54,168 nt of DNA. Source: Burkholderiales bacterium. GTDB lineage: Bacteria > Pseudomonadota > Gammaproteobacteria > Burkholderiales > Burkholderiaceae_C. The stretch spans positions 1 to 54,168 of the forward strand of contig QBMB01000012.1 in assembly GCA_003241965.1 (NCBI GenBank), given 5' to 3'. Below the pieces are notes generated by a model, which saw only the letters and a list, made by a program, of their open reading frames with translations, was not told where the DNA came from and ran no database searches. Positions within the stretch are counted from its first letter, which is position 1. Each line of letters begins with the position of its first letter. Both the position numbers and the translations under genes were made by a program. Positions 9,355-22,182 of the stretch are shown in pieces.

Positions 9355-10122
9355 ATGCCTTGTCGCACCCTGCTCGTGACACTCACCTCTGCCGCAGCGC
9401 TGCTGGCGCCGGGCCTCTCACAGGCGCAAGTAACGCTCAAGGCCGACGGCGAGTGGCGCTACCTGCTGAGCGCTGGCGCCAACGTTTCATCGGGCAACAA
9501 CAACGCGGGTTCGGTGAATCTGGCGGCCGAGGGCGCGCGCCAGACGGACGACGACAAGTGGACCTGGGGTGCCAAGGCCGACCACGCGCGCAGCGAGGGC
9601 GTGGCCACCACCGATCGTTACGGTCTGCGCTCCCAGTACAACCGCGACATCTCGCCCGACTGGTTCGGTTTCGGCTCGGGCGAGACGCTGAGCGATGAGT
9701 TGGCCAACATCTCGGCCCGGTATTCGGTGGCCAGTGGCGTCGGGCGCCATGTGTGGCGCGAAGAGCGCGGGTTTTTCGACGTGTCCGCCGGCCTGGGCTA
9801 TTCGTACGACCGCTACGTCAGGCCCGCCAACGTGGCCGGTGCGATGCGCGACGAATACGGCCGGACCGAACTGGTGCTGGCCGAAGAGACCAGCCACCGG
9901 CTGACCAAAACCACCCACCTGCGCCAGAAGTTCACGCTCTACCCGAACTTGCGCGACACAGGCAAGTACCGCGCGGTGCTGGACACCGGCATGACCGTGG
10001 AGATGACGCCGACGATCAACCTGTCGGCGGGCCTGAGTTACCGGTACGACAGCGACCCGGGCACCAATCTGGAGAAAGGCGACGCGATGTTTGTGACCGG
10101 GCTGTCGCTCAGATTTGACTAG
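9355..10122 (+). CDS. DUF481-family outer membrane beta-barrel protein
   Basis: This is a 255-residue protein with a signal peptide (PCRTLLVTLTSAAALLAPG, cleavage near LSQAQ). The rest consists of alternating amphipathic strands such as WTWGAKADHARSEG, DVSAGLGYSYDRYV and LSAGLSYRYDSD, ending in SLRFD. This matches DUF481 (YdiY-like) outer membrane barrels, whose function is not established. The ATG at 9355 starts the signal peptide and has CGGAA upstream; another in-frame ATG at 9310 would add 15 residues. It is divergent from the hydrolase lipoprotein across 175 bases. Its TAG stop overlaps the TAG stop of pyk on the other strand through the shared CTAG. Confidence 0.87.
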   Translation: MPCRTLLVTLTSAAALLAPGLSQAQVTLKADGEWRYLLSAGANVSSGNNNAGSVNLAAEGARQTDDDKWTWGAKADHARSEGVATTDRYGLRSQYNRDISPDWFGFGSGETLSDELANISARYSVASGVGRHVWREERGFFDVSAGLGYSYDRYVRPANVAGAMRDEYGRTELVLAEETSHRLTKTTHLRQKFTLYPNLRDTGKYRAVLDTGMTVEMTPTINLSAGLSYRYDSDPGTNLEKGDAMFVTGLSLRFD

Positions 10123-11552
10123 GCTGCCCGGCAGATCTTGAGCGTGTTGGTGCCGCCGGCCTGGCCCATGGGTTCGCCCACCGTGATGGCGTACACGTCG
10201 CCCGTCTGCACGATGCCGCGTTTTTTCAGGTGGGCCTCGGCGTCGGCCAGCGCGGAGTCGCGGTCGGCGCTGTTGTCCATCAGCAGCGGGCTCACGTTGC
10301 GGTAGAGCGTCATGCGGCGCTGGGTCGAGAGGTTGGGTGTCATGGCGTAGATCGGCATGCGCACGTTGTGCCGGCTCATCCACAGCGCGGTGGAGCCCGA
10401 GTCGGTCAGCGCCACGATGGCCTTGGCGCCCAGGTGGTGCGCCGTGAACAGCGCGCCCATGGCAATCGACTGGTCGATGCGCTTGAAGGTCTTGCCCTGG
10501 AAATCGGCGCTGAGTTCCTTGTACTCCGCCTTTTCGGCTTCCTGGCAGATGTTGGCCATCTCCATCACCGTCTCCAGCGGGTACCTGCCGGCAGCGGTCT
10601 CGGCACTCAGCATCACCGCGTCGGTGCCGTCCAGCACCGCGTTGGCCACGTCGCTCACCTCGGCGCGTGTGGGCACCGGGTTGACGATCATCGACTCCAT
10701 CATCTGCGTGGCGGTGATCACCACCTTGTCCATCTCGCGCGCCATTTTGATCATGTGCTTCTGCAGGCCGGGCACAGCCGCGTTGCCCACTTCCACCGCC
10801 AGGTCACCACGCGCCACCATGATGCCGTCGGACACCTTCAGGATGTTGGCCAGTTCGGGGATCGCTTCGGCGCGCTCGATCTTGGCGATCAGCGCGGGCT
10901 TGTGGCCGGTGGCCGAACCTGCCACGTTGCAGAGCTGGCGCGCCAGCTCCATGTCGGTGGCGTTTTTCGGAAAGCTCACCGCCACGTAGTCGGCCATCAG
11001 GCCCATGGCGGTCTTGATGTCGTCCATGTCCTTGGCGGTCAGCGCCGGCGCAGTGAGGCCGCCGCCCTGCTTGTTGATGCCCTTGTTGTTCGACAGTTCG
11101 CCGCCCAGTTTCACCGTTGTGTGCACCGCCGGACCCACCACCTTGTCGATGGTCAGCACGATCAGGCCGTCGTTGAGCAGCAGGGTGTCGCCGGCCTTCA
11201 CGTCGCGCGGCAGTTCCTTGTAGTCCAGGCCCACGCCTTCCAGGTTGCCCGGCTCGGTGCGCGAGGCATCCAGCACGAATTTTTCGCCCGGCACCAGCAG
11301 CACCTTGCCCTCGGCGAATTTGCCCACGCGGATCTTGGGGCCCTGCAGGTCGGCCATGATGCCGACCTCGCGCCCCGCGCGCTGGGCGGCTGCGCGCACC
11401 AGCGTGGCCCGGTCGATGTGGTCCTGCGCCGTGCCGTGCGAGAAGTTCAGCCGCACCACGTTCACGCCCTCGCGGATCATGGCTTCGAGCAGAGCCGGGT
11501 CGCTGGACGCAGGGCCGAGGGTGGCAACGATCTTGGTGGCGCGCATGGGCAT
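10119..11552 (-). CDS. pyk: Pyruvate kinase
   Basis: This 477-residue glycolytic enzyme converts phosphoenolpyruvate and ADP to pyruvate and ATP. Landmarks are RATKIVATLGPASSD at the N terminus, RLNFSHG, GIMADLQGPKIRVG, the metal and active-site segment GIMVARGDLAVEVG, TQMMESM, and SAETAAGRYPLETV. The C-terminal allosteric domain is complete. The ATG at 11552 has GGAG about 12 bases upstream. A 37-bp dyad and a GATAAT -10 lie 46-82 bases upstream. The gene converges on the DUF481 gene, and the stop codons of the two share bases. Confidence 0.97.
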   Translation of the reverse strand: MPMRATKIVATLGPASSDPALLEAMIREGVNVVRLNFSHGTAQDHIDRATLVRAAAQRAGREVGIMADLQGPKIRVGKFAEGKVLLVPGEKFVLDASRTEPGNLEGVGLDYKELPRDVKAGDTLLLNDGLIVLTIDKVVGPAVHTTVKLGGELSNNKGINKQGGGLTAPALTAKDMDDIKTAMGLMADYVAVSFPKNATDMELARQLCNVAGSATGHKPALIAKIERAEAIPELANILKVSDGIMVARGDLAVEVGNAAVPGLQKHMIKMAREMDKVVITATQMMESMIVNPVPTRAEVSDVANAVLDGTDAVMLSAETAAGRYPLETVMEMANICQEAEKAEYKELSADFQGKTFKRIDQSIAMGALFTAHHLGAKAIVALTDSGSTALWMSRHNVRMPIYAMTPNLSTQRRMTLYRNVSPLLMDNSADRDSALADAEAHLKKRGIVQTGDVYAITVGEPMGQAGGTNTLKICRAA

Positions 11553-11597
11553 GAAGGGTGTCTCCTGTCGGTGGATGGCCGGGCTTGAAGTGCCCGG

Positions 11598-11634
11598 TGT
11601 AATTTGGTTTCAATTATCTGTGAAACCAGTTACA
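11598..11634 (-). promoter_or_regulatory. Dyad operator over the pyk promoter
   Basis: The nested inverted repeat is TGTAA-TT-TGGTTTCA-ATTATCTG-TGAAACCA-G-TTACA on the plus strand. The 8-base inner arms are perfect, and so are the 5-base outer arms. Its centre contains ATTATC, which is a GATAAT -10 box on the minus strand, while no good -35 is present. Such a layout suggests control by a dimeric regulator. A small hairpin (CCGGGC/GCCCGG, 11579-11597) follows in the pyk leader. Confidence 0.6.
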
Positions 11635-11656
11635 TGCCCGCGACATCCGCGCGGAC

Positions 11657-12001
11657 TCACTCCGCTTCGGGCTTGACCGGTGAGCGTTCGCTGCTGGCCG
11701 CGCGCCCAAGCTGGCTGTCGATCGCGCGGGCGAGCTTGTCCGCTGCGCCGCGCACCGCCTGGTGCAGTGAAGGTGCGTCATCGGTGACGGCAATCGGCGG
11801 GCGTCCCTCGGGTCGTGCTTCCATCACGCAGCGCTTGTCTTGCAGCCCGCCCTTGTCGCCGTTCTGGTCGCTCAGGTGCACCTCCACGCGGGTGATGTGG
11901 TCGCGGAATCGCTGCAGTGCGTGTTGCACGGTGTCGTCGACGTGGGTGACAAGGGCTTCGTGGCCTTCGATGTGGCCATCGGTGTTGACTTGGATCTTCA
12001 T
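11657..12001 (-). CDS. HPF/RaiA-like ribosome-associated protein
   Basis: This 114-residue protein matches the short hibernation-promoting factor/RaiA fold. It starts MKIQVNTDGHIEGHE, has a helix VTHVDDTVQHALQRF, a strand ITRVEVHLSDQNG, and a helix SLHQAVRGAADKLARAID. Such proteins bind the 30S subunit and silence or protect ribosomes in stress. The C terminus is short and lacks a long-form dimerisation domain. The ATG at 12001 has GGGAG about 10 bases before it. Sequence match to canonical HPF is moderate, so a role as a diverged paralogue is also possible. It lies upstream of pyk on the same strand but about 100 bases away with a pyk promoter between. Confidence 0.72.
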   Translation of the reverse strand: MKIQVNTDGHIEGHEALVTHVDDTVQHALQRFRDHITRVEVHLSDQNGDKGGLQDKRCVMEARPEGRPPIAVTDDAPSLHQAVRGAADKLARAIDSQLGRAASSERSPVKPEAE

Positions 12002-12110
12002 GGAGGTTCTCCCGGGTTGTGGTCGGTGCCGGCGCCGCGCCGCGCATGTCGGTGCGAGTCGGCTGCAAACCAAAAGGTTGCATGCCGATGGTGCGCCTTT
12101 CTGCCGATCA

Positions 12111-12605
12111 TCAAAGCCGGTTGCTGCGCGCCGGCGCCAGCCCGCTGTATTCGAGCTGCACAAAGGTCTCGTCGACCACCTGCAGGTGCACGCTGGTGCG
12201 CCGGAAGGTCCATTGGCGGTCGATGGTTGCCGAGGAGGTTGAGCCACGGCTTTTGGTGCTCATTTCCAGCCCGTAGCTCGAGCGCAGCGAGGTGGTGAGG
12301 CGCTGGCCCAGCGCGCGGGCTTCCCGAGCCGAGCCGGTGTTGGCCAGCAGCGTGATGCGTTGCAGCCGGTCCGCCTGGAACACGAAAGAGACCTTGAACC
12401 GTGCGCCGAGAAGCTCGTGGGCCGGTATCTCCAGCTGCACGCCCTCCTTGCTGGAGGGTGGGCCGGCGGGTGCGGGCTGCGCTTGGGGCATCAGTGCCTG
12501 CACCTCGGCCGGTGTGGCGCCCACTGGAACGTCTTGCCACAGCGCCTGCGCCGAGGCGCCCGCCGTGGACAGCAGCCAGGTGAGGCAGAGCAGGAATTTC
12601 TTCAT
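12111..12605 (-). CDS. Hypothetical secreted protein
   Basis: I do not recognise a family. The 164-residue product has a clear signal peptide (KKFLLCLTWLLSTAGASAQA), so it is probably periplasmic. The mature part begins WQDVPVGATPAEVQALMPQ, which looks like the start of a small BamE-like or SmpA-like alpha/beta unit. It continues with beta-rich segments (FKVSFVFQADRLQRITLL; QWTFRRTSVHLQVVDETF). No cysteine pair or catalytic motif stands out. It lies about 110 bases upstream of the HPF-like gene on the same strand and is divergent from the hybrid kinase across 240 bases in which I see no further gene. Confidence 0.75.
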   Translation of the reverse strand: MKKFLLCLTWLLSTAGASAQALWQDVPVGATPAEVQALMPQAQPAPAGPPSSKEGVQLEIPAHELLGARFKVSFVFQADRLQRITLLANTGSAREARALGQRLTTSLRSSYGLEMSTKSRGSTSSATIDRQWTFRRTSVHLQVVDETFVQLEYSGLAPARSNRL

Positions 12606-12845
12606 ATGCGCAGTGAGATACGTGGTGGAAGGTAAAAGTTGTCTGTGCAGTAGACCAAAGTTGGGCATGGGGTCGAACCAGGGCCGTCTGCGCGAGGCTT
12701 GCACCATCGAATGGCAAGCATGCCTATGTTTGCCACCGTACAGACCACGCCTTGCGCGCGTGTGGCAATGAGGTGGACCGATCCACCAGATCACCCGACC
12801 ATTGCGCGGCGTCTGCGTCCTGAATCCCCAAGGAATCCCAGCACC

Positions 12846-15752
12846 ATGCCCGCCGCCCTGTTGCCCGTCAGCGAAGCACGCCGCCTCCAGATCCTGGAAG
12901 AGTTGAACGTGCTCGATTCGCAGCCCGATCCGGTGCTCGACGGTCTGGTGCGCAGTGCCGCCCAGTTGCTGGACTGCCCGGTGGCCCTGGTCTGCCTGCT
13001 GGATGAAAAGCGCCAGTGGTTCCTGGCGCGCCATGGCCTTGACATGACCGAAACCCCGCGCGAGCAGGCGTTTTGCGCGCACACCATCCTGCAGGACGGC
13101 CTGCTGGAAGTGCCGCATGCCCTGCAGGACCCCCGCTTTTCAGACAACCCCCTGGTCACTGGCGAGCCCCATGTCGGGTTCTACGCGGGCATTCCTCTGG
13201 TGGTGGATGGCGAACGCATGGGCACCTTCTGCGTGATCGATGACCAGCCCCGCCAGATCACCGACACCCAGCGTGGGTATCTGCGCGATCTGGCGCGCGC
13301 AGCCGAGTACTGGCTGAAAAACCACCGGCTGAACGAACAACTGCGGCGCGCGGACGCGGACCGGCGCGGCCTGTTCGAGCAGATGGGCGACGGCGTGCTG
13401 TTGCTGGACCAGAACTACCGGGTGATCGACGCCAACCGACGTGTCCTGCGCATGTTGGGCTACGAGCGGGCCGAGCTGCTGACCAAACGCCTGCACACGG
13501 TGATCCCCATGGGTGAACATGCGCGCCTGTCCAAGGCGGTGGCCGAACTCGCGGCCGGCGCGGAAAACCTGACCGAATGGCAGGTGTTGCGCCAGGACCG
13601 AAGCCAGTTCACGGCGGAGGTGAGCACGCGCGCGGCGGACGGTCACCGCTGTGTGGTGGTGGTGCGCGACATCACGCAGCGCCGCGCACAGGAGCAGCAC
13701 CTGCGGCTGCTGTCCATGGCGGTGGAGCAAAACTCGCAGAGCATCGTCATCACCGATCTGGCGGCCGATATCCAGTACGCCAACGCCGCCGCGCTGTCCA
13801 GCTCGGGCTATGGCCGGCACGAGTTGCTGGGCGTCAATTCCCGCCTCTTGCAGTCGGGCATGACGCCGCCGGAGACCTTCGTGGACATGTGGGACAAGCT
13901 GCTGTCGGGCCAGACTTGGCGAGGGCTGCTGTTCAACCGCCGCAAGGACGGTGAAATCTATGTGGAACACGCGTCGATCGCACCCATTCGCGACGCCGAG
14001 GGGCGGGTGACCCAGTACCTCGCGATGAAGGAAGACGTGACCGAGAAACGGCGCATGAACGGGGAGCTCAAGCAGCACCAGCTGCACCTGGAAGAGCTGG
14101 TCGTGCACCGCACCGTCGAGCTGGAGGAGGCCCGGCGCGCGGCCGAGGCCGGCAGTGAGGCCAAGAGCGCCTTCCTGGCCAACATGAGCCACGAAATCCG
14201 CACCCCCATGAACGGTGTGGTGGGGCTGGTCGATGTGCTGCAGCAGTCCAGCCTCACGCCCTACCAGAAGGACCTGACCGAGACCATCAGCGAGTCTGCG
14301 TTTGCGCTGCTGGGCATCATCGAGGACATCCTGGATTTCTCCAAGATCGAAGCCGGGCACATGACGCTGGAGAGCGAGCCGGTCTGCCTGTCCCGCCTGG
14401 TGGACAGCGTGTACAGCGGCCTGCGGGTGAATGCAGACAGCCGCTCGGTGGCGCTGGATGTGTACATCGACCCCGGGCTGCCGCAGTGGATCAAGAGCGA
14501 CTCGGTGCGCCTGCGCCAGATCCTCAACAACCTGGTGGGCAACGCCATCAAGTTTTCGGTGGGCATGCAGCGCGCGGGACGCGTGGAGCTGAGGGTGGAG
14601 CTGGCCGAGGCCGGCTGTTTTCGCCTGCGGGTGATCGACAACGGCATCGGCATGGCGCCCGACGTGCTGACCCGCATCCTGGAGCCTTTTGTGCAGGGCG
14701 AGGCCTCGACCACGCGCCGCTACGGCGGCACCGGCCTGGGCCTGTCCATCTGCCGTCGCATCGCGCAACTGTTCGGTGGGCGCATGGAGGTGCAGAGTGA
14801 GGCCGGTCGTGGATCCACGTTCACGGTGACCCTGCCCTGCCGGGCTACAGAGCAGCCCGGTGAGCCCACGGCGCTGTCATCGGTGATTGCTCTGGCCAGT
14901 GGAGCGCCCCTGCCGGCGGGTACGCGCCCGGTGGTGCTGGTGGCCGAAGACAACGACATCAACCAGAAGGTCATCCGCCGGCAACTGGCCTTGCTGGGCC
15001 TGGGTGTGGACATGGCCCACGACGGCCTGGAGGCGCTCGCGCTCTGGCGCCAGGGGCGCGACACCCAGCGCTACTGCCTGCTGCTCACCGATCTGCACAT
15101 GCCCGGCCTGGATGGCTATGCACTGGCCACGGCGATTCGCAGCGAGGAGCCTGCGAGCCAGCGTTTGCCGATCGTGGCGCTGTCGGCCAACGCCATGCGG
15201 GGCGAGATCGACCGCTGCAAGCTCGCCGGCATGGACGACTACCTCAGCAAACCGGTGCAGCTGCAGCCGCTGGGCACGTTGCTGCAGCGCTGGATCAGTC
15301 TGGACGGTCTGGTGCAGGTGGCGAGCGAACCCGTGGCGGCGGCCGTTGTCTTGCCCGTGCTGCACCTCGCCGTGTACGACGATCAGGCCCTGTCGCTGCT
15401 GGTGGGCGATGACCCCGAGATGCTCGCGGAGTTTCGGCAGCGGTTCATGCTCTCGGCGCTGTCCACGATGGAGGACATGCGCAAGGCGACCGCCCGGGCC
15501 GATTTTGCGGAGGTGGTCGCGCTCGCGCACCGCCTGACCTCGTCATCGCGCGCCATGGGCGCCATGGTGTTGGCGGCCTGTTGCCATCAGGTGGAGCGCG
15601 CAGGTGCCCGGTGCAGTCCCGCGGTGATGCATGCGCTCATGGTCCAGATGGAAGACGCCCTGGCCCAGGTCATGGCCCGTTTGTCTGCGAGCCAGCACGA
15701 GCCCAGCCCCGCTGCAGAAACAGCGGCGTTCGACTGGGGCGTCAGCCGGTGA
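12846..15752 (+). CDS. Soluble hybrid histidine kinase (GAF-PAS-PAS-HisKA-HATPase-REC-HPt)
   Basis: This is a 968-residue hybrid sensor kinase. Domains in order are: GAF (about 25-165, with GIPLVVDGERMGTFCVID), PAS 1 (about 180-295), PAS 2 (about 310-430), a short coiled coil, and HisKA with NMSHEIRTPMNG (phospho-acceptor His449). HATPase follows (NNLVGNAIKF, DNGIGMAPD, GGTGLGLSICRR), then a receiver with DLHMPG (phospho-acceptor Asp749) and SKPV, and a C-terminal HPt with AHRLTSSSRAMG (His895). No membrane segment is seen, so it should sense a cytosolic signal. The internal receiver and HPt give a full phosphorelay, but no separate response regulator lies nearby. The ATG at 12846 has AAGGAA upstream; an in-frame ATG at 12699 adds 49 residues of poor quality. 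Confidence 0.93.
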   Translation: MPAALLPVSEARRLQILEELNVLDSQPDPVLDGLVRSAAQLLDCPVALVCLLDEKRQWFLARHGLDMTETPREQAFCAHTILQDGLLEVPHALQDPRFSDNPLVTGEPHVGFYAGIPLVVDGERMGTFCVIDDQPRQITDTQRGYLRDLARAAEYWLKNHRLNEQLRRADADRRGLFEQMGDGVLLLDQNYRVIDANRRVLRMLGYERAELLTKRLHTVIPMGEHARLSKAVAELAAGAENLTEWQVLRQDRSQFTAEVSTRAADGHRCVVVVRDITQRRAQEQHLRLLSMAVEQNSQSIVITDLAADIQYANAAALSSSGYGRHELLGVNSRLLQSGMTPPETFVDMWDKLLSGQTWRGLLFNRRKDGEIYVEHASIAPIRDAEGRVTQYLAMKEDVTEKRRMNGELKQHQLHLEELVVHRTVELEEARRAAEAGSEAKSAFLANMSHEIRTPMNGVVGLVDVLQQSSLTPYQKDLTETISESAFALLGIIEDILDFSKIEAGHMTLESEPVCLSRLVDSVYSGLRVNADSRSVALDVYIDPGLPQWIKSDSVRLRQILNNLVGNAIKFSVGMQRAGRVELRVELAEAGCFRLRVIDNGIGMAPDVLTRILEPFVQGEASTTRRYGGTGLGLSICRRIAQLFGGRMEVQSEAGRGSTFTVTLPCRATEQPGEPTALSSVIALASGAPLPAGTRPVVLVAEDNDINQKVIRRQLALLGLGVDMAHDGLEALALWRQGRDTQRYCLLLTDLHMPGLDGYALATAIRSEEPASQRLPIVALSANAMRGEIDRCKLAGMDDYLSKPVQLQPLGTLLQRWISLDGLVQVASEPVAAAVVLPVLHLAVYDDQALSLLVGDDPEMLAEFRQRFMLSALSTMEDMRKATARADFAEVVALAHRLTSSSRAMGAMVLAACCHQVERAGARCSPAVMHALMVQMEDALAQVMARLSASQHEPSPAAETAAFDWGVSR

Positions 15753-15760
15753 GGTGATGG

Positions 15761-17071
15761 TCAGGCGATCGTGATGTAGTCCCACAGGCCGGTGACGGGG
15801 TCCTTGGTGCCCAGGTACAGATTGGAATTCACGTCGCAGCACAGCACGGTCAGCGCGGTACTTCCATGGGCCTGGTTCGGCCGGGCGACCGCGTGAAACA
15901 GGTCTGCACCGATCACCCACTCCGTGAACGCGCCGGGATCCAGAAGCAAGACCGACTGCGATTCGCACAGGCTGGGAGTGAAGTCGTCAGGCCCGACGCA
16001 GAACACCTGAAACCAATGCCATCGCCCGGGCTTTTGCCCTTCTGGTGGCGTCCACACAGCTTGTGGTGCGCCTCTCCATGTGGGCCCGGCGCCCGGGGGG
16101 CTCGGCAATGCAGGCATGGGTTTTCCCAAAAACAGCGCATCCTTGGAGATGACCCAGTTCTTTTGGCTGAGCGGGTCATCCATGCCCGAGAACGGGTTGA
16201 TGACGGCGCAACTGTCGTTGGGATCGGGTGCAATGACACTGCTGATCAGCCCGAGCGTTGGCCAGGTCGGCTCAGTTGCCACCGGGCTGTTGAGCTGTCG
16301 GGCCCAGGCGTCACCCGCCGGCGTTTTGGGAATGTGGACTTCCACACCCGACTTCGGAGCGTCTCCAGCCGATGGGGCTTCGTCCAGTGAGGCGCCTGCA
16401 ATGACCATTGCATCTTCTTCCTCGAAGTACGAGGGGTAGCGTGTCGCGACGCAGGCCGCGATCTTCAATTGACTGGCCAAGCCAATCGCCGGGTTCACCA
16501 GTGTGATCGGGTACGTCCCGACCACCCGGCCTGCCTCTGAAAAGTCGCATCGCATGGCGGCCATACCGACGGTAGAGGAATGCTTCATGAGAAAGACGCT
16601 GCGCGTCGCCTTGGTCAACAGGCCCAGGCGGGCTTGCGACACAACGGGCATCTGTGCCGCCAGGCTCATGGCGTTGGCAAAGAAGGCCGCCCAGACATTG
16701 AGGTCGGTGGAGAAGGGCAACGCGGGCAGGTAGAAGGCCAGTGAGTTGTTGGCGTTCCCTTGTGGCGCAACCAGCAGCAACAGATCGATGGTGTCGTCGT
16801 TCCGACCCTGTCCACAGTTGCTGATCATGTCGAAATCGGTCACTTGCAGGTCGGGGCGCCACGCCACGGTCAGGAAGTTTTGTGTCCATTGACCGCGCTG
16901 CGTACCCGGCAGCCAGATGCCGAGGCCTGTCTCTCCGAGAACGAAAAAGATCAGTTCTCCGCCGCGGTTCGTGGCGACGGCCAGTTTCTCCATCGACAGG
17001 GCCATGGCTGGCAGGTCTTGCGCGCCTGCTCCGGTGCGTGCCGTTCCCAAAGGGGATGGGGTCTGTGTCAT
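15761..17071 (-). CDS. Uncharacterised 436-residue protein, paralogue of its larger neighbour
   Basis: I recognise no named family. The whole protein is colinear with about the first 430 residues of the next gene. Shared features are an FxLxxxxxLxxWLPGxQ segment, then VTDFDMISNCGQGRNDDTIDLLLL, then ARLGLL and RSVFLMKH, then a YFEEEDAMVIAGAS segment, then WHWFQVF. The last segment, LTVLCCDVNSNLYLGTKDP, ends in a Trp strand (GLWDYITI). Repeated strand-turn-strand units ending in Trp suggest a beta-propeller-like fold; this is inference. There is no signal peptide or membrane segment. The ATG at 17071 has GGAGA 8 bases upstream. The stop lies 8 bases from the end of the convergent kinase gene. 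It probably shares a transcript with the large gene, although 151 bases separate them. Confidence 0.85.
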   Translation of the reverse strand: MTQTPSPLGTARTGAGAQDLPAMALSMEKLAVATNRGGELIFFVLGETGLGIWLPGTQRGQWTQNFLTVAWRPDLQVTDFDMISNCGQGRNDDTIDLLLLVAPQGNANNSLAFYLPALPFSTDLNVWAAFFANAMSLAAQMPVVSQARLGLLTKATRSVFLMKHSSTVGMAAMRCDFSEAGRVVGTYPITLVNPAIGLASQLKIAACVATRYPSYFEEEDAMVIAGASLDEAPSAGDAPKSGVEVHIPKTPAGDAWARQLNSPVATEPTWPTLGLISSVIAPDPNDSCAVINPFSGMDDPLSQKNWVISKDALFLGKPMPALPSPPGAGPTWRGAPQAVWTPPEGQKPGRWHWFQVFCVGPDDFTPSLCESQSVLLLDPGAFTEWVIGADLFHAVARPNQAHGSTALTVLCCDVNSNLYLGTKDPVTGLWDYITIA

Positions 17072-17222
17072 GTTGAAATCTCCAGGTGAAGGGGTGTGGA
17101 TGAAACCGACACGTACTTTCTGGCGGCACTGCTACCCGAGCGATACCGCAACCACACTATTTGGTGCGGCCACCACCCCAACGGTGGGTCGGGTCGCACG
17201 AGCGGTGCCCGACCCATCGGGA

Positions 17223-20200
17223 TCAATTGGAGATGGTGCCCGGCACGTGCCAGTCGTTTTTGGCCGCCACCGCGAGTGCCGCCATGCTCACCAGCGGCAC
17301 GGTGCTGCGCACGCCGTTGGTCACGGCGCGCACCACACCCAGGGGCGACGTGGGTGGTGCAACGCTGTCGGGCCACGCCATCCCCATGTAGACGGTGGTG
17401 CCGAAGCACTGAATCAACGGCGTGGTTTGCAGCAATGCCCAGTTGCCGGGGTCGCTGGGTTCGGTGCGCGGGATCTCGGCCACCTTCACGCTGGTGTAGA
17501 TCGAGCTGCCCAGCAGCAGCGCCCCCCCCATGCAGGTCTCGAAGATGGCCGCGGCTTTTCTTGCCACCGCCGGTGGCGGCCCGTTGCGCGTGGCGTAGGC
17601 CATTTCCATCGCGTCCTTGCCGCGACTCACGACGCCGTCCACGAGCAGGAACACGACGGTGCCTTTGAGTGCGTCCTGTGAGGGCTGCACGCTCGCACAG
17701 CGCGCGCTGGCCCAGCCCATGGAACTGACCCAGGCCAGCGAGTCCAGGATGCACTTGGAGCGCACGAGGTTTTGATCGAAAGTGCTGCCCGCGCCGGCGT
17801 ACCGCAGCGACATCCAGGCCATGAAGTACAGCAGCTTGCACGAGCCGCTGAACAGGGTGACCAGCAGCAGCACGTCGGTGGCCCAGGAGGCGTTGTCGTT
17901 GTTGCCGAGCCGTGGTGCGAGCAGCAGCTCTTGCAGCGAACCGGCCTTTTCAATGGCCTCGCGAAAGGCGCTGGAGATGAGGGGCGCATCCAGCGCCAGC
18001 CGGCTGCCCACGTTGCCCAGGCAGGCGGCCGAGAGCAGCACCGCGTCGAGCAGGCTGAGACGGGAACCCGGTGCGATCAGGGTTTCGTACAGCGGCGTGA
18101 TCACCGGGATGTCCAGAGGTTGGTCGAACGCATCCCAGGCGTCATCCACCATGTTCGCCAGCAAGCCCAGAAGTTCTTGCACCAAGGGCTGCAGCAGGTC
18201 GAGCGTACCGGCGCCAACGAGCGCGATCAGGTCTTCGAACACGGTGAGCAGGGGCAGGTCGGTGAAGCCGGGGCGGTTCACGGTGGCGGCGATGTCGTCG
18301 GCTGTGCCTTGCAAAGATACGCCGGCTTGCGACACCAGCTTTTCAATCGCATCGGCGTTGCTCCAGGCGCCGCTGTCCGTCAAGGACATGTTGCCGCTGT
18401 AGGACTGGAAGGTCTGCGCGCCCCACCGCGCATCCGGGCCGCTCCAGCCTGTGGTGTCGGTTTCGGTGTTGCTGTCGCCCTGGCTGGCCCGGCGGGCCAG
18501 CAGGGTGCGTGTTTCGGGGTCGAGGTCGGGCAGCCGGGTCATCAGCGCGCGGGCCCATTGCAGGTTCTTGTTGAGCTCCTGCGGCGCCTGGTGCCGCATC
18601 CAGTCGCTGGCCTGGTTTTTCACCAGCAGAGCCAGTTTTCGCAGGGCGTTGTGCGCCTGCACGATCTCGTCCCAGTTGAACACGTGGCCCAGCCAGTTGA
18701 CGATGTCGCCCAGTTTCACGCCCAGCGTTTTCTGCAGCGCCCAGTCCAGCAACTCGGCGGCCTGCGAGGCGATGGCCACGATGCCGTTCCACACCATTTC
18801 TCCGATCTTCACGGCAATGGAGCACAGGCCATCGGCCAGCCAGTTCAGGGTCACCGTCACGTCGTCCAAAGCTTGCGACACCGCCGTCCACAGGAAGCTC
18901 ATGATGTCGCCGATCGCATCCCACACACCGTCTTGTGGTGCCTGGGGTGGCGCGTCCAGCGCCAGCTCTCGGGTGGTGAGCACGCCGCCTTGCCAGCACA
19001 GTTGCGTGCGCCGAACCACCACAGCCGAACCCCTGCGGCCGGGCGGGGCGGCCAGGGTGGCGTGGTAGGCCTGCAGGAACGGTGTCATGGCCGCATATGC
19101 CTGGGTGCAGGTGTCCAGTGGCAGGTGGGCAAAGGGGTGCGAGCCATCGCTGGCCTGCGCCTGCTGCAGGACCAGGCCGCTGGTCACGGCACCCAGCTTG
19201 GCGGTCATGCCCGTCATCGGGTTGAGCGACACGCTGTGGGCCGCCGCGCTGCCCAGCAGTGCGTTGCGTTGTGCGCCGGCGGGCACCAGGCCGGGCGGCA
19301 TCGGGGCACCGTCCGGGGTCTGCACCACCTCCACATCGATCTGCACCGCGCCCAGGCTGCTCACGGGTTGGATGAAGGTGATCTCGCCGCCGGCCGTGGT
19401 GGAGGCCACCGTGGGTGCGAGCGGACTCAGGTGGGCGGCCTGCCCGTTGAGCAGGCCGAAGCACGGCGCGTGCGGGCGCAGGCGAACGGCGGCGTTGAGC
19501 ACCGGTGCCGAGGTGTCGTCCAGCACCCGGATGCGGGTGGTGTAGCTGGTGCGGGTGTGCAGGCCGCGCTGCAGGTTGTCGTCGGTCACGGTGTGGCGCT
19601 GCCACTGCGCGCTGATGCTGTCCTGCGAAAAGATCTCGAGCCCACCTTCTTCATAGGCCACCAGAATGTGCAGAACCGACAGGCCCGTCTCGGGTTCGGT
19701 GCACTGGCACACGCTGTAGGCGGCCACGTCCGCCGTCACCAGGGTTGAGGCGACGTTCGGGTCCAGGCACTCGGCGCTCAGCGTCATCTGAAGGCTGGCA
19801 GGGGCCGCGGGGTCGCTCGCCGGGCGGACCAGCGCAAACCAGCGCCACGGGTCGGCGGGCGCCGCCAGGTCCAGCCGCAGGGCCTGCCCTGCACCCGGCG
19901 CCACCGACCAGCCCGGCAGGCTGTTTTCCAGGCACCACAGCATGTCATTGCGGCGCATCAGGGCGGGCGTCATGGCGAAGTTGGTTTGCGAGAGCTGGCC
20001 GGCATGGGGCAGGTTGAACACGGCCAGTGGTTCACCCGTGTCGTTGCGGGTGAATGTGTTGACGTTGACCGGGCTGATCCAGTGGGAACTGCTGCCCAAG
20101 GGAGATTGCAGCGAGAGGCTCCACGGGGGCTGACCATCACTGGCGGGGAGCTGCACGCTCACCTGACCGGGCTGACCGCTGTCGAACATGGAAGCCGCAG

Positions 20201-20858
20201 CGATCAGCGCGTCCTCGTCGTCGCCCAGCGGTCTTGCCGCCACGAACGCGGCTACGCTGAGCTGGTGAGCGCCGGCTTCGAAGCTTCCAAAGGGCAGTGG
20301 AGCGGTCTCGATGCAGCGGCCCTGTGCGTCAAAACGCGAGCGGATGGCCTGGGCCGTCGACGCCGGAAGGTGGCGAACCAGAAACACCGAGCGCACCGGC
20401 AGCGGCAGCAAGCCCAGGCGTGCGCAGGTCGGCTGCTCAAGGCTGGACACCAGCGGCGCACACGCCGCAAAACCCAGGCGCCAGGCCTCGGGGTCGGCGC
20501 TGGCCGGCATGCCTGGCCAGTAGAAAGCCTTGACGTCGGGCGCGCCCACAGCGCCGACATCGGCCAGCAACAGCAGATCGAGCGTGTTGTCCCTCCGCCC
20601 CTGGCCGTGGTTGCTGATGAGGTCGAAGTCCAGGATGCGCGGGTTGTCCACGCCCATCAGGGTGGGGCTGACCTGGACCCAGCGGGTGTAGCCCTGCGCA
20701 CCCGGGAGCCACACCAGGAGGCGCTGCTCGTGATCCAGCGTGAAGAGCAAGGGTTGGCCGTTGTCGGCCGGGACCATGCGGACCTGTTGGTAGCCTGCCG
20801 CGGCGGGTGATCCGGGCAGGTATTGGGGCATGAGTTGTGTGTCGAGAAGGATTTGCAT
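17223..20858 (-). CDS. Uncharacterised large multidomain protein (propeller-like, Ig-like and helical parts)
   Basis: This is a 1211-residue protein of no named family. Part 1 (about 25-430) is homologous to the whole 436-residue neighbour, including ILDFDLISNHGQGRRDNTLD. Part 2 (about 440-516) is beta-rich and resembles an Ig-like or carboxypeptidase-regulatory domain (RIRVLDDTSAPVLNAAVRL, then TTAGGEITF). Part 3 (about 645-780) has long amphipathic helices with many Trp (LGDIVNWLGHVFNWDEIV). Part 4 (about 870-1210) holds helices, the segment LDIPVITPLYETLI and hydrophobic stretches (DVLLLVTLF, KLLYFMAWM). There is no signal peptide. Similar helical parts occur, from memory, in large unstudied proteins of fungi and actinobacteria. 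ATG at 20858 is used; a TTG at 20870 would add four residues. Confidence 0.87.
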   Translation of the reverse strand: MQILLDTQLMPQYLPGSPAAAGYQQVRMVPADNGQPLLFTLDHEQRLLVWLPGAQGYTRWVQVSPTLMGVDNPRILDFDLISNHGQGRRDNTLDLLLLADVGAVGAPDVKAFYWPGMPASADPEAWRLGFAACAPLVSSLEQPTCARLGLLPLPVRSVFLVRHLPASTAQAIRSRFDAQGRCIETAPLPFGSFEAGAHQLSVAAFVAARPLGDDEDALIAAASMFDSGQPGQVSVQLPASDGQPPWSLSLQSPLGSSSHWISPVNVNTFTRNDTGEPLAVFNLPHAGQLSQTNFAMTPALMRRNDMLWCLENSLPGWSVAPGAGQALRLDLAAPADPWRWFALVRPASDPAAPASLQMTLSAECLDPNVASTLVTADVAAYSVCQCTEPETGLSVLHILVAYEEGGLEIFSQDSISAQWQRHTVTDDNLQRGLHTRTSYTTRIRVLDDTSAPVLNAAVRLRPHAPCFGLLNGQAAHLSPLAPTVASTTAGGEITFIQPVSSLGAVQIDVEVVQTPDGAPMPPGLVPAGAQRNALLGSAAAHSVSLNPMTGMTAKLGAVTSGLVLQQAQASDGSHPFAHLPLDTCTQAYAAMTPFLQAYHATLAAPPGRRGSAVVVRRTQLCWQGGVLTTRELALDAPPQAPQDGVWDAIGDIMSFLWTAVSQALDDVTVTLNWLADGLCSIAVKIGEMVWNGIVAIASQAAELLDWALQKTLGVKLGDIVNWLGHVFNWDEIVQAHNALRKLALLVKNQASDWMRHQAPQELNKNLQWARALMTRLPDLDPETRTLLARRASQGDSNTETDTTGWSGPDARWGAQTFQSYSGNMSLTDSGAWSNADAIEKLVSQAGVSLQGTADDIAATVNRPGFTDLPLLTVFEDLIALVGAGTLDLLQPLVQELLGLLANMVDDAWDAFDQPLDIPVITPLYETLIAPGSRLSLLDAVLLSAACLGNVGSRLALDAPLISSAFREAIEKAGSLQELLLAPRLGNNDNASWATDVLLLVTLFSGSCKLLYFMAWMSLRYAGAGSTFDQNLVRSKCILDSLAWVSSMGWASARCASVQPSQDALKGTVVFLLVDGVVSRGKDAMEMAYATRNGPPPAVARKAAAIFETCMGGALLLGSSIYTSVKVAEIPRTEPSDPGNWALLQTTPLIQCFGTTVYMGMAWPDSVAPPTSPLGVVRAVTNGVRSTVPLVSMAALAVAAKNDWHVPGTISN

Positions 20859-20905
20859 GGAGTGACCCAACGAGTTGTTAAGTACTCAATGAACGCATCT
20901 GCCCC

Positions 20906-20951
20906 TGACAAGAAGATGTCAAACATATTCATATTCATGATGAATTCATGA
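20906..20951 (-). promoter_or_regulatory. AT-rich palindrome cluster upstream of the large uncharacterised gene
   Basis: Within the 142 bases between the MFS gene and the large gene, base composition becomes locally AT-rich. Three symmetric elements occur: TGACA-N6-TGTCA (20906-20921), ATTCAT-G-ATGAAT (20933-20945), and two TCATGA copies (20935-20940 and 20946-20951) around TGAAT. On the minus strand TTGACA lies within the first element as a possible -35, but no clear -10 follows at the right distance. These look like binding sites for a dimeric regulator. Confidence 0.45.
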
Positions 20952-21000
20952 TCTTTGCGAAAACGGGTGGCCATCACCCCGCCCCGAGCCCCCGATTCAT

Positions 21001-22182
21001 TCAGGAGTGCTGCGCTTCCTCGCGCAACAGCGGGCGCAAGGCCCACAGCCCCAGCGCCGGGCCGATGGCCAGCCAGGGCAGCAGCGCGCCCAGGGCCACG
21101 CGCTCGGCCAGCGAAACGAACAGCAAGATGCTCACGATCGAGATCGCAAAGCCGATGCTGTTGGTGAGCGTGAGCACGCTGCCCACGGCCTGGGGTGGGG
21201 CGTTGCGCGCGGTGAGGGTGGAGAACTGCGGCGAGTCGCCCGAGACGGTGATGCCCCAGAGCACCAGCCACGCGTAGAACAGCGCGTCGCTGGCGTCGAT
21301 CATCACGAACGCGGCCACACAACACAGACCGCTGGTGGCCAGCTGAACGCCCGCCACGCGCGCGCTGCCCCAGCGCTGTGCCACCCAGCCGCCACCGGCG
21401 CAGCCGATGACGCCGGCACCCAGCACAAAAAACGCCGCCCACGACAGCGCTGTGCCCTGCAGGCGCGTGGCCAGCACCAGCGGCACCATCACCCACATCG
21501 TGTACAGCTCCCACATGTGGCCAAAGTAACCCAGCACCGAACTGCGCACACGCGCATCGGTCCACAGCGTGGTCAGCGCGCGCCACTGCAGCACCGTCAC
21601 GCGGGCCTGCGCGAGCGGTGGGTCGTTGGTGCCGAAGAACAGCAGCAGGCCACCGGCCGCAGCCAGCGCAGCCACGCCCAGCATGAGCGTGGGCCAGTGC
21701 AGGGCGCCGCCCAGTGCGCGCAAGGCATGTGCACTGGCCGAGCCCAGCACCAGCGCGCCTATCAACAGACCCAGCGCGCCACCCAGACCGCGCGTGTACC
21801 ACTGCGCGGCGATCTTCATGCCCACGGGGTAGATGCCCGCGAGAAAGAAGCCGGTGGCGAAACGCCAGACCAGCAAGGCCGAGTAGTCGCGCACCATCCA
21901 CCACGCGCCCACGGTGCAGGCAGCACCGGCCAACGCGCACACCAGAAACACGCGGCGCGGCGCAAAACGGTCGGCAATGGCCAGCAGCGCAAACACCAGC
22001 GTGCCCAGGATGAAGCCGAACTGCAGCGACGAGGTGAGCGTGCCCACCGCGCTCGTGGGCCAGCCCAGTTCACGTTGCAGATCCGGCATGACCGCATTGA
22101 CCGCGAACCACAGCGAAGTGCCCAGGAACTGGGCGAGCACCAGGATGGGCAGGATGTGGCGGGGGACGAGGGGCGAAGACAT
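21001..22182 (-). CDS. MFS transporter
   Basis: This 393-residue membrane protein has about 12 hydrophobic segments and the major facilitator layout. The first helix pair begins ILPILVLAQFLGTSLWFAVNAVMPDLQ. The loop between helices 2 and 3 is ADRFAPRRVF, a form of the conserved RxGRR motif. The second half repeats the design. The N-terminal LGTSLWFAVNAVMP style recalls CynX/NimT-like or other small-solute exporters, but the substrate cannot be read. The ATG at 22182 directly precedes the first helix, without a clear Shine-Dalgarno. It lies upstream of the large uncharacterised gene on the same strand, with an AT-rich regulatory stretch between, so co-transcription is uncertain. Confidence 0.9.
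   Translation of the reverse strand: MSSPLVPRHILPILVLAQFLGTSLWFAVNAVMPDLQRELGWPTSAVGTLTSSLQFGFILGTLVFALLAIADRFAPRRVFLVCALAGAACTVGAWWMVRDYSALLVWRFATGFFLAGIYPVGMKIAAQWYTRGLGGALGLLIGALVLGSASAHALRALGGALHWPTLMLGVAALAAAGGLLLFFGTNDPPLAQARVTVLQWRALTTLWTDARVRSSVLGYFGHMWELYTMWVMVPLVLATRLQGTALSWAAFFVLGAGVIGCAGGGWVAQRWGSARVAGVQLATSGLCCVAAFVMIDASDALFYAWLVLWGITVSGDSPQFSTLTARNAPPQAVGSVLTLTNSIGFAISIVSILLFVSLAERVALGALLPWLAIGPALGLWALRPLLREEAQHS

Follow-up and report, generated by a model that had tools for sequence, protein, structure and literature searches.

One published account describes fungal lectins that stay in the cytoplasm and become active on nematodes once ingested, and LSL, in which a lectin domain is joined to a pore-forming one (PMC6272156). 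The bacterial gene pair examined here may work along similar lines; it was found in a stretch of 54,168 nucleotides from a Burkholderiales bacterium (hereafter the window, meaning the whole of the DNA analysed), where the longer gene, LONG, encodes 1211 residues (17223..20858, reverse strand) and the shorter gene, SHORT, encodes 436 (15761..17071, reverse strand). Chimerolectins such as LSL resemble the design proposed for LONG, in which a head that binds sits on a membrane-active body; the fungal defence lectins of the cytoplasm, Tectonin2 among them, resemble its proposed storage and its action after ingestion (PMC6272156). No sequence similarity was found, neither LONG nor SHORT having a Pfam family at E 1 or better, and the analogy is one of way of working only. 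A literature search by accession (four relatives, one neighbour) returned no paper, and topical searches returned analogies only.

The gene pair is real, and the family to which LONG belongs is real, unnamed and mobile; its members may be toxin-like or defence proteins. The reading that we favour, tentatively and from the sequences, is a cytoplasmic toxin or defence effector in which a binding head is mounted on a membrane-active body, with SHORT as a spare head. LONG would combine an exchangeable head for recognition, a small middle module, and a body that is rich in helices and hydrophobic in part. Inspection showed no signal peptide in SHORT or LONG, and the cytoplasm is therefore the probable place of storage, with action following release through lysis or ingestion. 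By way of its head, LONG would attach to a ligand on a surface, which may be a glycan, and the body would insert into, or disrupt, the membrane of the target; a foreign cell is the likeliest target, and bacterivorous protists are a plausible one. As a free head, SHORT may be a second binding subunit or may compete with LONG for the ligand as a decoy. Speaking for this reading are the homology of the two heads, the body common to the relatives, the variety of heads placed before it, the C-terminal hydrophobic windows, the patchy spread, exchange at one locus, and a partner gene that recurs elsewhere. These features are established from sequence; binding, the ligand, membrane action, storage, the target, and what SHORT does are inferred. 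If this reading is correct, the weapons or defences of bacteria would gain a family that Pfam and NCBIfam do not model, and a testable modular logic would apply wherein the head chooses the target and the body acts; should the function be another, the family can still be searched for and tested, as can its partner gene and its exchange at one fixed place in the chromosome.

Two genes and one shared module

BLASTP aligns residues 21-435 of SHORT with residues 18-424 of LONG (133/428 identities, 31%; 135 bits; E 4e-38; next-best match in the comparison, E 3.4), which bears out the original prediction, made by eye, that SHORT is homologous to the N-terminal ~430 residues of LONG; the listed landmarks WLPGxQ, DFD(M/L)ISN.GQGR, ARLGLL, RSVFL, and W(H/R)WF are present in the alignment. 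SHORT is a free-standing copy of the LONG head module, and both reading frames are intact. The LONG start ATG at 20858 is backed by relatives with Met at the aligned position, and the 151-nt gap between the two genes (17072..17222, reverse strand) holds no promoter-like or terminator-like site according to consensus scans only. When the whole genome (4.89 Mb, 177 contigs) was queried with SHORT and LONG, no place beyond these two was found.

SHORT could be a by-product of partial duplication of LONG that has no function itself, as would suit its presence at one locus only and its lower GC3 (0.748, compared with 0.858 for LONG, 0.878 for the neighbouring MFS gene, and 0.916 for the pyruvate kinase gene, pyk). 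We regard this as unlikely, given that the 436-codon frame is intact, with a GGAG just 5' of its ATG, and that the landmarks are kept at 31% overall identity, which is not expected of a recent decaying duplicate; moreover, a GC3 below that of LONG itself counts against recent local copying from LONG. The pairwise identities of three heads (SHORT and LONG, 132/407; LONG and its relative in genome G114 of the same genus, 150/417; SHORT and the G114 head, 91/396) do not root them, and an order of events for SHORT based on these values was discarded.

The suggestion that the module is supplied both alone and fused holds at the window locus and fails for the family: no within-locus paralogue of LONG was detected at the ten other loci at E 1e-3 (133 ORFs compared, each of 120 aa or more and the ten LONG relatives among them). 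A survey of short and long genes, as originally proposed, thus did not reveal regular pairing, the SHORT-LONG pair being present at the window locus only, and a small gene regularly beside the toxin gene, the feature of toxin/immunity systems, was seen at 0/10 other loci. These results bear on the notion of an antibacterial effector that is passed between bacteria and has SHORT as its immunity protein, for which a large multidomain protein with a small paralogue next door, a patchy spread, and exchange at one locus could all be cited. Since no such paralogue was found at the ten other loci, the LONG family does not require SHORT as an immunity protein; in addition, SHORT is like the head of LONG, not its body, and an antibacterial effector of this kind appears decidedly improbable. 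A carrier/effector or bait relation between the two proteins, the other kinds originally suggested, is conceivable.

Both proteins lie outside named families, as had been surmised: searches of Pfam, NCBIfam, PHROGs, PADLOC, and PDB sequences gave nothing significant for either. The best PHROGs match of the two had an E of 0.1, and the best E values against PDB sequences were 0.13 (LONG), 0.33 (SHORT), and 0.54 (head profile); PADLOC returned 0 families for SHORT and LONG, and no known anti-phage system was recognised in them. The head matched no propeller or lectin model in Pfam or NCBIfam, no PDB sequence significantly, and not the tectonin-bearing protein P0012, and the body of LONG matched none of the known pore-forming domains in Pfam, NCBIfam, and PDB-sequence searches; this lack of lectin, propeller, or pore-forming profile matches counts against the favoured reading.

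Architecture and spread of the LONG family

The head of LONG (residues 1-430; 19569..20858, reverse strand, as are all parts of the gene) is homologous to nearly all of SHORT and is propeller-like by eye only. It is followed by a middle module (approximately residues 437-515; 19314..19550) that is Ig-like by eye only and is aligned in 7/8 rows of the family alignment, A7, and partly in the eighth. The conserved body (approximately residues 643-960; 17979..18932), which is helix-rich as read from the sequence, is matched in the relatives in A7 and includes the most conserved body stretch (residues 915-950; 18009..18116), wherein P918, L923, and A945 are invariant in 8/8 rows; the C-terminal tail (residues 961-1211; 17226..17978) is variable, partly hydrophobic, and poorly aligned, and contains a hydrophobic window at 996-1014. 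The part common to all family members is the C-terminal, helix-rich, partly hydrophobic body, and the helix-rich body with its 915-950 stretch, by which the unnamed family is recognised, is present in the window's LONG, one of the eight rows of A7.

The LONG family is unnamed, rare, and patchily distributed, and LONG is not an orphan. Eleven loci are known: the window, G114, Stanieria, Methylocystis, Undibacterium, Kovacikia, G361, G950, G1215, G1183, and G1313, of which the G950 and G1215 relatives are near-copies (98.9% identical). All ten other loci match profile A7, whose own members are the eight A7 rows. With LONG as the query, matches were found in 2/67 genomes of the genus and 2/200 of the family, both times the window's genome (G000) and G114; profile counts were 3/399 for the order, 3/398 for the phylum, 3/369 for the class, and 3/292 for the order of G950, these samples overlapping such that the counts are not additive, and all but the last including G000 and G114. 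Outside the window's phylum, the coverage consists of one contig pattern scan and the plasmid records only. In the latter, LONG led to the Stanieria protein (BAU67470.1) and the Stanieria protein in turn to those of Methylocystis (WP_165050668.1), Undibacterium (WP_162044878.1, annotated as LamG domain-containing), and Kovacikia (WP_224346717.1), which places the family in two phyla, Cyanobacteriota and Pseudomonadota, and on four plasmids, one typed conjugative; the plasmid location of these four follows from the choice of a plasmid-only collection. The four plasmid proteins have 1072-1197 aa and a homologous body, are 15-21% identical to LONG where the C-terminal parts align, and differ from LONG in having a laminin-G head (Undibacterium) or a head without an assigned domain (Kovacikia), in their other neighbouring genes, and in that no head paralogue was found beside them. 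Phage records contained no LONG-family match, and viral contigs scanned with P0001, P0002, P0004, and P0006 contained no relative. Three viral contigs with a degenerate motif encode no relatives (best E 0.88), and a Lokiarchaeal match from the pattern scan (L006) is absent from the unfiltered profile A2 matches up to E 10; both leads were rejected.

The front ends of the ten relatives differ: one is clearly LONG-like, six are weakly so, two carry laminin-G or PQQ domains, and one has no assigned domain. The head clearly shared with LONG is that of G114 (150/417 identical, as above), and the weakly linked heads are those of Stanieria, Methylocystis, G1183, G950/G1215, and G1313. Comparison of the LONG head with three distant heads gave an hhalign probability of 36%; in a test set of 503 sequences, a profile built from five of the weakly linked heads scored the LONG head at E 4.8e-4 (0.048 for its best single domain) and the G114 head at 0.085, both ranking ahead of the best of 500 shuffles (1.6), and did not detect SHORT. 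The weakness of this link to the distant heads likewise counts against the favoured reading. Laminin-G precedes the body in the Undibacterium relative (Laminin_G_3, E 7.6e-8, above its cut-off), and PQQ (E 2.3e-7) together with laminin-G (E 1e-17) precedes it in the 2155-residue G361 relative; the first 247 residues of the Kovacikia relative have no assigned domain. Because the same body comes after laminin-G or PQQ plus laminin-G in two relatives, the shared module behaves like an exchangeable head.

The laminin-G and PQQ-propeller domains of these two relatives, along with the size and modularity of the proteins, could also indicate a protein with a structural or adhesive role, in the cell envelope or in an inclusion, and no killing activity. 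Against such a role, no signal peptide or anchor was seen by inspection, and a hydropathy scan of ten family proteins found at least one hydrophobic 19-residue window (mean at least 1.6) in the last 40% of each (10/10); furthermore, exchange of divergent versions at one locus would be more usual for conflict genes, and a structural or adhesive role thus seems improbable. The number of hydrophobic windows varies: SHORT has none, G114 has one (1.67), LONG has two (means 1.65 and 1.85), and the count rises to seven in Kovacikia. The low numbers in LONG and G114 count against the membrane-active body of the favoured reading.

Partner gene and surroundings of the relatives

A family of mutually homologous proteins of 471-570 aa, termed A8, adjoins LONG at 4/11 loci at a distance of 38-79 nt, lying before LONG in Stanieria (38 nt), Methylocystis (79 nt), and G1183 (69 nt) and after it in G1313 (52 nt). 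Among seven LONG-bearing genomes searched by profile, A8 is present in G1183 and G1313 and was not found in G000, G114, G361, G950, or G1215, such that it is common in the LONG family without defining it; in the order of G1183, it occurs in 1/131 genomes, namely G1183 itself. BLAST of the locus stretches of Undibacterium and Kovacikia gave no A8, although a distant copy could be missed by this method. The A8 profile matched no Pfam model at E 0.1 or better and no PDB sequence significantly. A8 was likened by general look only to the OrfX/P47 (TULIP) proteins of clostridial toxin clusters (PMC7020563); none of five PDB sequences at E 10 or better was named P47 or OrfX, and TULIP/P47 membership, a by-eye lead, was dropped.

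Taken together with the swapped heads, the LONG proteins could represent a thinly scattered new class of modular conflict proteins in free-living bacteria, in which one membrane-active body is combined with interchangeable heads, a dedicated partner is present at approximately one third of loci, the genes have moved between phyla, and, in the window's lineage, the head has been freed as a separate subunit for two-component binding; this broader picture is put forward as speculative.

Other genes around the relatives vary from locus to locus. Methylocystis (L009:6339-12388) and G1183 (L078:7496-13506) have a common cassette of A8, the LONG relative, and, directly after it, a convergent third gene, the last of which is 40% identical between the two (E 1.6e-33) and is annotated as an S8-family peptidase in Methylocystis. 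In G950 (L021:9148-16957) and G1215 (L077:3182-11033), the LONG relative closes a run of four closely spaced genes (in G950, of 796, 329, 291, and 1197 aa, the first three without a significant Pfam or PADLOC family), and in G361 (L016:8338-14805) it is divergent from a hybrid kinase gene. The Undibacterium relative overlaps by one base with a 314-aa gene of no known family (L010:10815-11759), the parallel of which with SHORT was considered and not supported, and within ~8 kb of it are a gene that matches MkoC and one annotated as avs1c. On the Stanieria plasmid (L008:2845-6432, 11905-17689), a WD-repeat protein gene is upstream of the partner and LONG, and DevABC-type exporter, P450, and sulfotransferase genes are downstream of LONG; in Kovacikia, a tectonin/hemopexin protein is encoded upstream of the LONG relative, past an IS66 transposase gene.

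The main rival to the favoured reading is that of an intracellular anti-phage (abortive infection) effector, wherein the head would sense a phage product, the body would damage the cell's own membrane, and SHORT would be a regulator or decoy sensor. Among eight neighbours picked by annotation, and with no enrichment implied, defence models matched at 3/4 plasmid loci (MkoC, E 4.2e-79, in Undibacterium; TIR in Kovacikia; HEAT-ARM_XIII in Stanieria, on the WD-repeat protein), and these matches, along with the annotated avs1c, fit such an effector, as do the variable chromosomal spot and the lack of a signal peptide by inspection; the 17 cysteines of LONG would equally suit a purely cytoplasmic role. 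Conversely, PADLOC gave no match for SHORT, LONG, the G114 and G1313 LONG proteins, all four A8 partners, P0010, or three G950 neighbours; a second set of eight scanned proteins, drawn mainly from those same partners, LONG relatives, and G950 neighbours, produced none, and the scanned neighbours are a selection. Laminin-G heads are usual in extracellular proteins, which also counts against an anti-phage role, and no obvious defence gene was apparent by eye among the ORFs of the genus intervals, as judged from their first 60 residues. An anti-phage effector is considered possible, if rather doubtful, and the binding head on a membrane-active body directed at a foreign cell is retained as the favoured reading.

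Divergent versions at one chromosomal spot

G114 has the same MFS-LONG order, with pyk further down, and has LONG alone, SHORT being absent. Protein identity between the window's genome and G114 is 92% for MFS and 96% for pyk and approximately 36% for LONG; at fourfold-degenerate sites, 187/246 (MFS), 213/266 (pyk), and 131/271 (LONG) are identical, the synonymous sites of the two genus LONG copies being near saturation. From the fourfold sites and the identity of the flanks, it follows that the two LONG genes split long before their flanks; one version appears to have been replaced, or each to have been inserted separately, at one spot. Fast in-place protein change was rejected as the source of the 36% identity, since only 131/271 fourfold sites are identical.

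The original claim that the neighbours do not explain the pair stands: the MFS gene is present in 58/66 genus genomes at E 1e-100 or better, compared with 2/67 for LONG, and a head profile found no copy in 66 genus genomes beyond G000 and G114. Of 15 further genus loci downstream of MFS, one spans just 2454 bases, and LONG and SHORT have no match in any of the rest. The hybrid kinase was rejected as part of the system, as kinase relatives lie near the MFS gene without LONG in G214 and G221; the kinase beside the G361 relative is 33% identical to the window's hybrid kinase over residues 426-919, an ordinary kinase-receiver match.

The MFS-pyruvate kinase interval (window 10119-22182; L007, L052-L066) is a variable spot in the genus, extending from a distance of ~2.6 kb in G239 and G252 up to stretches without pyk within the 12 kb examined. 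Its contents differ by genome and include, as read by eye, kinases, response regulators, transporters, or peptidases.
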